Positions 9,354 to 21,194 of a stretch of DNA of 21,472 bases are shown here, piece after piece (within the stretch, counting starts at the first letter, position 1; the number at the start of each line of letters is the position of its first letter). The stretch lies in the IMG/VR virus record IMGVR_UViG_3300006737_000268, positions 1 to 21,472 of that record; one strand, 5' to 3'. The notes beneath the pieces are model-generated. The model did no database searches. It was not told the DNA's origin and was given only the letters and a program-made list of their open reading frames with translations. The stretch comes from a virus. Both the position numbers and the translations under genes were made by a program.

Positions 9354-11357
9354 ATGGCAAGATCCGCACCCAGTTTTAGTGCGTTCACAGCTGGTGAGAT
9401 TAGCCCACGCCTCGAAGGTCGCACAAATTTAGAAAAGTATTCGCAAGGTCTGTCGGATCTTACGAATATGGTTGTCATGCCGCATGGCGGTGTCACCAGG
9501 CGTCCAGGCACAGAATATCTGGGCGAGGTCAAAAGCAGTTCTGTCAAAACAAGACTAATACCGTTTCAGTTTAAAACGTCTGATACTTATATTTTAGAGT
9601 TTGGTAATCAGATCATGCGTGTTTTTCGTAATGATCTACAAGTACTCACTAGCTCTGCAAAAACAATAACAGCAATCACAAAAGCTAATCCTGGTGTTTT
9701 AACAAGTAATAGCCACGGGTTTAGCAACGGCGATGAGATCTTTATCGATAGCGTTGGCGGCATGACAGAACTAAATGGCCGCAACTATCGAGTAGCGAAC
9801 TCAACAACAAATACATTTTCGTTGGTGGATCTGTTTGGAAATGCAATCAACTCTACCAGCTTTACAACATTTACATCTGGTGGAACTGCCACAGAAATTT
9901 ACGAAACGGCATCACCATACGCAGAGGCAGATCTATTTGATATTCGCTTTGTGCAATCAGCTGACACAATGTACCTGGTACATCCGTCATACGATATACG
10001 CACATTAACAAGAAGCGATCATAACAACTGGACGTTTGCTACGCTTTCAATCGGGGGATCTCCCAGCCCAGGATTAAGTGGCGCAAACAACAGGCCAAGC
10101 GTTGTCTCGTTTTTCGAGCAGCGCTTAGTATTCGGAAATACAAATAACAATCCGCAAACATTGTTCTTTAGCAAAAACGGTGATTACGATAATTTTGCAG
10201 TGGGAACAAATGACGATGACGCGCTTATCTATACGATTGCGTCAAACCAGGTAAACGCTATCCGTTATCTTTCAGCAACGAGAGTGCTTACTGTGGGTAC
10301 GTCTGGCGGCGAGTATGTGCTGACATCAACAAATGACGGGCCAGTAACGCCTACAACAACACTCATTAGGAAATACTCGAACTACGGAACATCTCAAATA
10401 GAACCCGTGCAAGTGGCCGATGTGACGCTTTTCGTCCAACGGGGATCAAGAAAAATTAGAGAGTTTAAGTTTGTCGGTGATGTAAACACGGGCGGCTATC
10501 AAGCGCCAGATATGACCATATTGGCTGAACATGTCACTAAGGGCGGCATTACTCAAATGGCCTATCAACAAGAGCCTGATAGTGTCGTTTGGTGTATTCG
10601 TGCAGATGGCACATTGCTGGGCATGACGTATCGCCGTGAAGAAGAAGTGGTTGCCTGGCATAAGCATGTATTAGGTGGTGCATTTGGATCTGGTCAGGCG
10701 GTAGTTGAGAGCATTGCAACGCTTCCAACGGACACTGGCGAAGATGCATTGTTTATGATTGTAAAGCGCACAATTGATAGCGTGACAAAAAGATATGTAG
10801 AAAAACTAAAACCGTTTGATTTTGGAAGTGTATCAACAGCGGCACATTTCGTTGATAGTGGTCTGTCGTATTCTGGTAGCTCTACAACAACGCTATCAGG
10901 GCTGTATCACTTGCGCGGTCAAACAGTAAATGTTCTGGCCAACGGGTCTAGCCATCCAACGGCAACAGTAAGCAGTGGCGGTATTACATTAAACTTCGGA
11001 GCAACAACAGCTGCTGTGGGTTACAGTTTTACCAGCGCAATGAAAACTTTGCGTATTGAGGCTGGTTCAGCTGATGGCACAAGCCAGGGTAAACCCAAGC
11101 GGATCCACGGCATTACACTGCGATTGTTTGAAACTGTAGGTATTGAGGTTGGTAACAGTCCAACAGATGTAGATCGGATCCCGTTTAGAGATAGTTCAAT
11201 GGCAATGGATGCCGCTGTGCCGTTATTTACGGGCGATAAAGATATAGAATTTAGAGGTGGTTTTGATGAGGATGACCGCATTTACATACAGCAAAGCCAG
11301 GCACTGCCGATGACCATCTTGGCCTTTTATCCTCGACTAAACACATTTGACATATAG
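9354..11357 (+). CDS. Tail tubular protein B (gp12-like nozzle)
   Basis: This is the nozzle protein at the end of the short tail. The 667-residue sequence opens with the typical S-F-S-A-F-T-A-G-E-I-S-P-R-L-E-G-R, then L-T-N-M-V-V-M-P-H-G-G-V-T-R-R-P-G-T, T-R-L-I-P-F-Q-F and Y-I-L-E-F-G. Residues about 103-183 form an inserted beta domain (S-H-G-F-S-N-G-D-E-I, then M-T-E-L-N-G-R-N-Y) of a kind often found in phage tail proteins and labelled FCCH-like. After it come the expected F-F-E-Q-R-L-V-F-G and F-F-S-K-N-G-D-Y-D-N-F segments. The ATG at 9354 follows the previous stop directly, so translation is probably coupled; GAGAG upstream is only a weak ribosome binding site. Confidence 0.94.
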   Translation: MARSAPSFSAFTAGEISPRLEGRTNLEKYSQGLSDLTNMVVMPHGGVTRRPGTEYLGEVKSSSVKTRLIPFQFKTSDTYILEFGNQIMRVFRNDLQVLTSSAKTITAITKANPGVLTSNSHGFSNGDEIFIDSVGGMTELNGRNYRVANSTTNTFSLVDLFGNAINSTSFTTFTSGGTATEIYETASPYAEADLFDIRFVQSADTMYLVHPSYDIRTLTRSDHNNWTFATLSIGGSPSPGLSGANNRPSVVSFFEQRLVFGNTNNNPQTLFFSKNGDYDNFAVGTNDDDALIYTIASNQVNAIRYLSATRVLTVGTSGGEYVLTSTNDGPVTPTTTLIRKYSNYGTSQIEPVQVADVTLFVQRGSRKIREFKFVGDVNTGGYQAPDMTILAEHVTKGGITQMAYQQEPDSVVWCIRADGTLLGMTYRREEEVVAWHKHVLGGAFGSGQAVVESIATLPTDTGEDALFMIVKRTIDSVTKRYVEKLKPFDFGSVSTAAHFVDSGLSYSGSSTTTLSGLYHLRGQTVNVLANGSSHPTATVSSGGITLNFGATTAAVGYSFTSAMKTLRIEAGSADGTSQGKPKRIHGITLRLFETVGIEVGNSPTDVDRIPFRDSSMAMDAAVPLFTGDKDIEFRGGFDEDDRIYIQQSQALPMTILAFYPRLNTFDI

Positions 11358-19500: not shown

Positions 19501-19833
19501 CCTAAAGTAAAAAGCGGAGTGCAGTTATCTCGCGGCGTTCAAAGTGATTGGGTTAATTTAGCTAAAAATGAAATTGAACTCGATATCGCTGGTTTAGGTC
19601 GTGTAAATTATAGAGACATGTTGAGATCCGTTTTGACCGATACGTCAAATCGATACGGCGCAAAATATGAAATGCTAGACGATATAGATCGCAAACAATT
19701 TATAAACAATATTGTTGAAAAGAGGTTTCGCGATGCAGCTTGGACAAAGCTTATGCAAGATCCAAAATACGCAAATCTAAACCGTACAATATTTGATCTT
19801 GAAAACGCTAGGAAAGAAGGAAGAATAGAGTGA
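16534..19833 (+). CDS. Giant internal/ejection virion protein (LPD38-like)
   Basis: The frame can be opened at GTG 16507, but that codon is inside the terminator stem. ATG 16522 has no ribosome binding site, whereas ATG 16534 follows GAGG at 16526-16529. I choose 16534, giving 1,099 residues. The first 380 are charged, helical and Ala/Gln/Lys-rich. L-A-G-L-L-S-N-T-A-T-Q-V-R-N-I-V-G (about 403-419) followed by a hydrophobic stretch, G-G-D-E-F-F-K (533-539), A-S-M-V-I-L-D-P-G-S-V, and L-P-F-A-T-A-P-T-N-D-M-L-R (about 624-636) are the pattern of the large polyvalent-protein-associated domain 38 seen in many phage ejection proteins (recalled, not searched). It occupies the slot of T7 gp16, the channel-forming ejection protein. 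No lytic transglycosylase motif was found at either end. Confidence 0.75.
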   Translation: MAIDPQDIAEENTQRSALAQQGSPTEFAEDPKKSIQLAGKLNTKAVLNLLKDSKDVETPSLPQEKVLLPDDGTYSETKIKKDAAKKLLSDEGQAKFKEQGFSAKPNEGIEVLKEAEEALSTEQALTEQSVKNLQTQSKQALTADEKGFDLTTGNVVDEGKADEALNLINATDASIEKLKATTADNNGDFNFDYMNTGDDINKTITALSQVYKDETQIVKRGQATNQVTIARAAERMQNEVGFTRNTVFARKEGQTWNAEEFTAARELLVRSAVKLTDLATKLKNGGANNADGVFEPATDLDRLAFRRQMAIHAAIQLQLKGAQTEAARALQSFKIQVGGEESAVRQAQEAKRLIDEVGGLGVTDNMARRFLDIQASRGLAGVNNMARGGWIARTRQAVADMYLAGLLSNTATQVRNIVGTASFMAYQLPVEALAGVFGTLNRQSQLFLYPETKFTTEQVEIDDFLMRLKGYSDAFVDALRVANVAFKSNKPAGASKLDLERYNAVTGTSDSYFGKSIDYLGMVSGVPFRLLLGGDEFFKTISQRGEFNVKVNRAYKNAIRNGATDAEARDAASMVILDPGSVADDVIGQSKFDTLQTDTGKLGKFSRDLQDIKLGPIPIGRYMLPFATAPTNDMLRSAEMIPFLTILGENTQRTLKGENGAAAAQMAYARYTVSALMMYQVSQFAMNGQITGATPQDPKVREKLPKGWQPWSIVQKGENWPTDADGNDLPLYDMYGSPNGTLKYYSYNGFGPVSTVIGITADTVQRMHMTDDTTLRNNIATAAAASVYNYYKELPMLEGMANFISVFSDEGESIRFDPVRLFKSPAEATSIVAFPNPYSSMQNALARAKEGSGIKDAREDLVYYTEQDILQTNKDGSFVYALGDGRADYSLIGQVKRELKPEAWRVINLLSSYQAKNSMFRNDDDRYAKRYDTLGRPLGDEDTNIYVRPGRAIFNALSGFRISEAQPVEDYEKELMRLSMAVGGWPLSNPKVKSGVQLSRGVQSDWVNLAKNEIELDIAGLGRVNYRDMLRSVLTDTSNRYGAKYEMLDDIDRKQFINNIVEKRFRDAAWTKLMQDPKYANLNRTIFDLENARKEGRIE

Positions 19834-21194
19834 CTGTAAGTAGCGCAACAAATAAGGTTAGCTATAACGGCAACGGCTCGACAACGGTCTTTGCCTATGG
19901 CTTCAAGATCTTTGATGAGGATGACCTCACTGTCATTATTCGTAATGCTAGTGGTGGTGAGACTACCAAAACAATTACCACACACTACACAGTGTCAGGG
20001 GTAGGGGCTGCAAGTGGTGGCAATGTCACAATGGGTACGGCTCCAGCATCTGGTGAAAGTCTAACAATAATTCGTGAGCAACCGCTTACGCAAGGTTTAG
20101 ATCTCGTACCTAACGATCCGTTCCCAGCGACACTCGTTGAGGATACGTTAGACAAGCTGACGTTCATGGTTCACCAGCATGAGGAAACATTAAACAGATC
20201 TATTAAGGGATCTAAGACAACCACAATTACAGATCCAAGTTTTACTGAGGATGCTACAGCCAGGGCAAACAAAGTCTTCGCTTTTGATGCTTCTGGAAAC
20301 ATCGACATTACGCAAGAGATTGGTGTTTATAAAGGTAACTGGGGGGCTGGTACAACTTATGCTGTGCGTGACCTGGTAAAAGATACAAGCACTAATAACA
20401 TCTTTATAGCTATTACTGCTCATACATCTAGCGGATCTCAACCCTTAACCACAAACACAGATAGCGCTAAGTGGGCATTAATTGTGGATGCTGCGTCAGC
20501 GACTGCTAGTCAAAATGCGGCGGCATCAAGTGCCACAGCAGCAGCGTCAAGTGCTACGGCGGCTGCGTCTAGTGCTACATCTGCATCGACATCAGCCTCG
20601 ACAGCGACAACAAAAGCATCTGAGGCATCAACGTCAGCTACATCAGCGGCTGCAAGTGCTGCTATTATTTCGCCAGTTCAAAACGAAATAACAACCATAT
20701 CGCAAAGTATTGCTACACTTAATGGCCTGGCTGCTATATTCTCAGGTACATCATCTATAACAGTGACAGTCGTAAGTTCGGGTGGCTCTAATTATTTCGC
20801 AATCAATGGAGTAACCGCACCAGCGCTAACGCTTGTTCAAGGCCACGTTTACACTTTCGATGTGAGTGACTCTTCGGTATCTGGACACCCATTAGTTTTT
20901 AAAGACTCTGGCGGTAGTGCATACACTACTGGAGTGACTACAACTGGTACGGCTGGAAGCACTGGGGCAACGGTTGTTATAGTTGTTCCTTCTTCGGGAA
21001 CTATGCCAGCAAGATACGCATGTTCAACGCATGGTAACGGCATGGGTAATACTATTGCCACCATAGATAGCGACATTAAAACGGTGGCTGATAACAGCGC
21101 CAACATCACGACAGTAGCAAGCAACATTTCAACAATAGCGCAAAAAGCAACGGTTGATGAGGCCACTGCATTAGCCATAGCGTTAGGAGGCTAG
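19830..21194 (+). CDS. Tail fibre with T7-type N-terminus and cupredoxin-like domain
   Basis: The start is GTG 19830, overlapping the previous stop by four bases, with AAGGAAG at 19817-19823. Residues 1-130 resemble the T7 fibre N-terminal attachment domain: Y-N-G-N-G-S-T-T-V-F-A-Y-G-F and later T-L-V-E-D-T-L-D-K-L-T-F. Residues about 175-216 form a small carbohydrate-module-like segment (Y-K-G-N-W-G-A-G-T-T-Y-A-V-R-D-L-V). Residues 217-278 are an Ala/Ser/Thr-rich stalk with three AAASSAT units. Residues about 310-412 look like a cupredoxin: Y-T-F-D-V-S-D, G-H-P-L (H353), then C398-S-T-H401-G-N-G-M405. The C-terminal N-S-A-N-I-T-T-V-A-S-N repeats suggest a coiled coil. At 454 residues it is short for a fibre, and receptor binding may be completed by a downstream gene. 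Confidence 0.86.
   Translation: MTVSSATNKVSYNGNGSTTVFAYGFKIFDEDDLTVIIRNASGGETTKTITTHYTVSGVGAASGGNVTMGTAPASGESLTIIREQPLTQGLDLVPNDPFPATLVEDTLDKLTFMVHQHEETLNRSIKGSKTTTITDPSFTEDATARANKVFAFDASGNIDITQEIGVYKGNWGAGTTYAVRDLVKDTSTNNIFIAITAHTSSGSQPLTTNTDSAKWALIVDAASATASQNAAASSATAAASSATAAASSATSASTSASTATTKASEASTSATSAAASAAIISPVQNEITTISQSIATLNGLAAIFSGTSSITVTVVSSGGSNYFAINGVTAPALTLVQGHVYTFDVSDSSVSGHPLVFKDSGGSAYTTGVTTTGTAGSTGATVVIVVPSSGTMPARYACSTHGNGMGNTIATIDSDIKTVADNSANITTVASNISTIAQKATVDEATALAIALGG
20517..20579 (+). repeat. Three 21-base repeats coding AAASSAT in the fibre stalk
   Basis: There are three adjoining 21-base units (20517, 20538 and 20559), each coding exactly A-A-A-S-S-A-T (residues 230-250). 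They differ only at synonymous third positions. Similar but degenerate Ser/Ala/Thr sequence continues to about 20660. Confidence 0.8.

Follow-up and report, generated by a model that had tools for sequence, protein, structure and literature searches.

The question raised by this locus is whether the tail fibre of a marine phage carries a type-1 copper site of the kind found in plastocyanin-like proteins. The window (the whole stretch of DNA that was analysed, 21,472 nucleotides, IMG/VR record IMGVR_UViG_3300006737_000268) contains the head-and-tail gene set of a podovirus, comprising terminase, portal, capsid, tail tubular proteins, and long internal virion proteins. The portal was matched by the Pfam Head-tail_con model (E 1e-144) and shares at most 59% identity with those of Pelagibacter (SAR11) podoviruses; the source is a podovirus of marine origin with kinship to the phages of SAR11. 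A preliminary description of the DNA had placed a copper-site motif in a phage tail fibre. The ORF matches PHROG tail proteins (13893, tail protein, E 4e-39; 1640, E 9e-37), and pelagiphage proteins annotated as tail fibres share 54-63% identity with its residues 1-220. In a separate tail protein at 9354-11357 of the window, residues 115-182 match the Pfam ubiquitin-activating enzyme FCCH domain (E 4e-10), which probably reflects a common beta-barrel fold.

The layout of the fibre is given in Table 1. Its N-terminal region also occurs in the pelagiphage isolates HTVC034P, Skadi, and others, and the CBM5/12-like stretch is strongly kept among relatives. The Ala/Ser-rich segment is probably a coiled-coil stalk, and residues ~309-412 are a discrete domain. 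Because the model of the full-length fibre, built with only six close sequences in the input, had a pLDDT of 39, the arrangement stalk, domain, stalk is a low-confidence reading.

Table 1. Features of the tail fibre gene, with coordinates in the window.
Feature	Position	Strand	Basis or conservation
Tail fibre ORF, 454 aa, GTG start	19830..21194	+	Last complete ORF of the window
N-terminal tail-attachment region, residues 1-125	19830..20204	+	PHROG tail protein N-termini
Weak CBM5/12-like stretch, residues 170-215	20337..20474	+	Pfam PF02839, E 0.094, under cut-off
Ala/Ser-rich segment, predicted helical, residues 217-304	20478..20741	+	Sequence; low-confidence model, helix 221-304
Cupredoxin-like domain, residues ~309-412	20754..21065	+	AlphaFold2, Foldseek PDB, profile-profile, family alignment
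C-terminal 42 residues, predicted helix 414-451	21066..21191	+	Low-confidence model
H353, first equatorial ligand candidate	20886-20888 CAC	+	50/51 representatives (60% clustering)
C398, thiolate ligand candidate	21021-21023 TGT	+	50/51 representatives; sole Cys of fibre
H401, second equatorial His candidate	21030-21032 CAT	+	50/51 representatives
M405, axial ligand candidate	21042-21044 ATG	+	49/51 representatives, exceptions E, Q

The motif residues of the fibre are Y341-T-F-D-V-S-D347, G352-H353-P-L, and Y396-A-C398-S-T-H401-G-N-G-M405. The four candidate ligands were found in the ORF translation at the positions originally assigned to them, and the C-x2-H-x3-M spacing gives a Cys-to-Met loop that is, as had been claimed, one residue longer than that of amicyanin and one shorter than that of plastocyanin. 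The residue order also falls within the His ... Cys-x(2-4)-His-x(2-4)-Met pattern of type-1 sites. An H...C-x2-H-x2-4-M arrangement arises in 0.023% of 100,000 shuffles of residues 290-454; ligand conservation is a stronger test than residue shuffling. Conservation was assessed with 208 complete distinct domains, which were reduced by clustering at 60% identity to 51 representatives with a mean pairwise identity of 39%. The full H/C/H/M set is kept in 202 of the 208; five domains vary the axial Met only (Q, Q, L, L, E), and one (the first copy in L248) is without both His and Cys together. All four ligand columns rank within the top seven of the family for conservation, in a group with F343, Y341, and Y396. 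As a control for seed bias, the scan was seeded with the N-terminal half of the domain only, which holds no ligand, and the outcome was the same: C-x2-H-x2/3-M is present in almost all complete domains, the sole complete viral exception being L099 (Met to Glu). Type-1 copper sites always require Cys and two His but accept Met, Gln, or Leu as the axial ligand, so the fixed Cys/His/His and variable axial position of the 208 domains form the pattern expected of such sites. The four residues, which the preliminary description had read as one metal site, are not varied independently, and H, C, and H are kept or lost as a group. Ligandless partial copies were found in cyanophage proteins (L177 and L206, from S-ShM2 and S-RIM2, and the second copy in L193). 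Those in L177 and L206, with the first copy in L248, are natural ligandless versions that would be useful as controls.

The domain was modelled with AlphaFold2 using an alignment of 44 diverse relatives, and residues ~309-412 were predicted to form a beta barrel (pLDDT 96.8, pTM 0.89). In this model, strand 50-53 (model numbering) comes just after H353, C398 terminates strand 90-93, and H401 precedes strand 97-107, which is opened by H401 to M405; the positions of the ligands relative to the strands are as in plastocyanin. When the model was compared with the PDB using Foldseek, the top matches were nearly all cupredoxins (probability up to 1.00, TMq up to 0.58), among them nitrite reductase 2dv6 (probability 1.00, TMq 0.58), pseudoazurin (TMq 0.57, probability 0.99), rusticyanin, and plastocyanin. 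The E-values of these matches are weak (best 7e-3) and the TM-scores moderate, and the SO1698 peptidase is interspersed among the cupredoxins. The plastocyanin-like reading thus agrees with the predicted barrel and with its best solved relatives. Among predicted viral structures, 61 matches with E <= 0.001 were obtained, showing the same fold in many tail proteins, including S-TIM5 H6WFV3 (TMq 0.89) and P-SSM2 fibres. The same fold was also seen in a 202-residue Marseillevirus LCMAC201 protein (BFVD A0A481YXP1, TMq 0.72).

These results bear on the reading in which the residues are kept for folding alone, within an apo beta domain (for example an immunoglobulin-like domain with a Y-Y-C motif) that binds no metal. 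Weak PDB sequence-profile matches to the domain are indeed mostly antibody chains aligned through 'YYC', but these fall short of significance (E 0.06 or worse) and were rejected; moreover, an immunoglobulin domain requires a second Cys, and a disulphide-paired domain of this type was ruled out by the single Cys of the whole 454-aa fibre. The fold search gives cupredoxins instead, the ligands are lost jointly with variation confined to the axial position, and the few members without the whole set (L248 and the S-ShM2 and S-RIM2 copies) still keep the domain. Conservation for folding alone is, on this evidence, most improbable.

Sequence relationships to plastocyanin-type cupredoxins were evaluated by profile comparison. 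Single-sequence searches of the window domain against Pfam and PDB sequences gave nothing useful; the domain has no match to PF00127, which its relatives approach with at most 20.8 bits (cut-off 21.2), and no Pfam or NCBIfam model was reached at cut-off by the domain family. A cupredoxin profile was built from PF00127 matches (three cyanophage plastocyanins plus cellular proteins), and its alignment by hhalign with a broad phage-domain profile had a probability of 91% and a score of 38.2, with all four ligands (His, Cys, His, Met) in register; the best of 200 column shuffles scored 18.4 and the reversed profile 10.95. The C-x2-H-x3-M spacing is present in the PF00127 (Copper-bind) members L229, L231, and L233. 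The two families are joined by intermediates: a tail fibre copy from P-SSM2 (PF00127, 19.8 bits), a MAG protein that scores 20.8 bits and is also matched by the phage-domain profile, and a secreted single-domain cellular relative whose six best PDB sequence matches are copper nitrite reductases (E 0.004-0.023). In plastocyanin-type sites the first His is usually followed by Asn; this PF00127-type Asn is absent from the representatives, in which the residue is Pro in 43 of 51 and otherwise Q, G, D, or T. Because the fold, the profile alignment, and the conserved ligand set agree, type-1 copper binding by the fibre domain is well predicted; the domain, its fold, and the ligand set are themselves computational results. 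PF25489 (At5g54830-like) matches 7 of the 44 members of the family alignment below cut-off (best E 5e-4), a hint that the eukaryotic At5g54830-like domain may also be cupredoxin-like.

A scan of viral contigs with the domain yielded at least 510 relatives, and 80 loci were kept. Using tblastn with a relative from L065 as the query, 335 of 50,697 phage records were matched; the matches listed carry the names Synechococcus, Prochlorococcus, cyanophage, Pelagibacter, Methylophilales, and marine or uncultured phages, and none of them belongs to the enterobacterial or any other terrestrial group. Existing annotations of the relatives are tail fibre, virion structural protein, baseplate wedge tail fibre connector, and hypothetical protein. 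Two loop classes were distinguished, C-x2-H-x3-M (HGNGM, as in the window) and C-x2-H-x2-M (HSGM). One copy of the domain is present in 164 of 196 ORFs and two in the other 32 (some contigs being counted twice), and in 23 ORFs from 20 distinct contigs, including the window and the isolates EXVC032P and HTVC028P, the domain is joined to the same fibre N-terminus.

Outside phages, the domain was found in 49 of 151 genomes of the SAR86 order and in only 1 of 397 other genomes of the phylum sample. A lipobox followed by a Gly run is present in 14 of the 16 SAR86 ORFs whose start lies in the locus; single-domain lipoproteins (L089:4878-5402 and L087:2536-3069) lie in a conserved chromosomal neighbourhood, adjoining a large secreted protein that is without a Pfam match, and other SAR86 carriers are large repeat-bearing proteins. 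Two adjoining short secreted single-domain proteins with the ligand set (L274, L275) were seen in one phylum-sample genome. Since it occurs in both SAR86 surface proteins and phage fibres, the domain is an extracellular module shared by marine bacteria and their phages. Electron transfer is the usual function of type-1 sites, and the export of lipoproteins with the same domain by SAR86 cells means that redox partners could exist, so a redox-active fibre domain, either exchanging electrons with host surface proteins or sensing redox state as a trigger, was considered. No redox partner gene was recognised adjoining the fibre, however, and the tandem and repeated copies of the domain, which occur in fibres and in giant surface proteins alike, point to a building block more than to a carrier; redox activity is judged very unlikely.

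The observations are best explained by a cupredoxin domain, most likely copper-binding, that forms a compact host-contact module near the distal end of the fibre, and this reading is held with considerable confidence. A Greek-key-type beta barrel would carry one type-1-like metal site, made up of H353, C398, H401, and the axial M405, and would be displayed near the distal fibre end between two predicted helical stalks. Because fibre assembly occurs in a cytosol that is nearly free of copper, the metal would probably be acquired outside the host cell after lysis, and it may then lock the two ligand loops to give a compact, stable host-contact module. Assembly in the cytosol is also the starting point for a different proposal, namely that another metal (zinc, iron, or nickel) is loaded at that stage and is used in the same way as the iron of the T4 fibre tip, or for binding to metal-uptake receptors of the host. 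The hosts inhabit iron-poor sea water, and metal-loaded phage fibres have a precedent in T4 gp37, with seven iron ions in HxH sites, and in an Alteromonas phage fibre with six such motifs (PMC11705849). Against this, a Cys/His2 set whose soft axial Met gives way only to Gln, Leu, or Glu fits copper cupredoxins better than zinc or iron sites, and a search for a T4 gp37-type HxH iron site gave only H115/H117, near the N-terminus, which is not kept in close relatives (L002, L003, L090, and L091); the HxH iron-site reading was rejected. Another metal is accordingly judged quite unlikely, and engagement of metal-uptake receptors is possible but unsupported.

For the copper-binding module, a part in attachment is suggested by its distal position, by exchange of the distal fibre, and by divergence that is faster than that of the attachment region. 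Pelagiphages have fibre residues 1-220 in common and exchange the distal part, and among close relatives the domain, its ligands excepted, is the most divergent part of the fibre (68-73% identity versus 85-94% for residues 1-125). Values of dN/dS in the domain are low (0.10-0.25), so rapid positive selection is not supported. We infer that the metal would be copper, that virions would carry it, and that the module would be active in attachment, its most likely role being that of a metal-stabilised host-contact module. A bolder version, in which the fibres of marine phages bear cupredoxins loaded with copper, either acquired from host surface proteins or common to both, and employ the metal for host recognition through redox state or metal-dependent docking, so that virions would constitute a copper-binding pool in sea water and infectivity would respond to copper, is considered unlikely.

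No description of a cupredoxin domain in a phage fibre was found in the open-licence literature; PMC8115048 deals with a viral nirK gene. Iron sites in phage fibres and phage plastocyanin genes are known, and the combination of a cupredoxin with a fibre appears to be new. If the site holds copper, phage fibres would possess another metal chemistry in addition to the iron HxH sites, and would do so in phages of SAR11, Prochlorococcus, and Synechococcus, some of the commonest in the ocean. It would also offer a handle on fibre attachment for hosts that are hard to grow. The idea of phages as trace-metal carriers, developed for iron, could be widened to include copper, and a name would become available for a domain whose current annotations go no further than tail fibre, virion structural, or hypothetical protein. 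Because the ligands are conserved in hundreds of relatives, metal-carrying phage fibres are directly testable in isolates that are already cultured.

Compared with known systems, the fibre domain resembles the PF00127 plastocyanin/azurin family in the order and register of His, Cys, His, and Met, in the beta barrel, and in the C-x2-H loop followed by Met; it differs in falling below the family cut-off, in having Pro in place of Asn after the first His, and in belonging to a phage fibre, where tandem copies are frequent, whereas plastocyanins and azurins are soluble carriers. The best fold matches, rusticyanin (1rcy), pseudoazurin (1paz), and the cupredoxin domain of the three-domain nitrite reductase 2dv6, are only 12-20% identical to it (TMq 0.48-0.58), and its ligand loop is shorter than that of rusticyanin. 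The metal sites of the T4 gp37 and Alteromonas phage R22Y fibres (PMC11705849) are likewise located in phage tail fibres, but hold iron between paired His and are without a cupredoxin fold, Cys, or Met. Cyanophage plastocyanin (petE) is also a marine-phage cupredoxin, sometimes encoded in the same genome as the fibre domain (P-SSM2, S-TIM5, Bellamy); unlike the latter, it is a stand-alone secreted electron carrier of host origin and no component of the virion. The cupredoxin lipoproteins of SAR86 (L087, L089, and loci among L246-L273) share the domain, the ligand set, and the profile matches with the fibre, but are cellular surface proteins with a lipobox and do not belong to phages.
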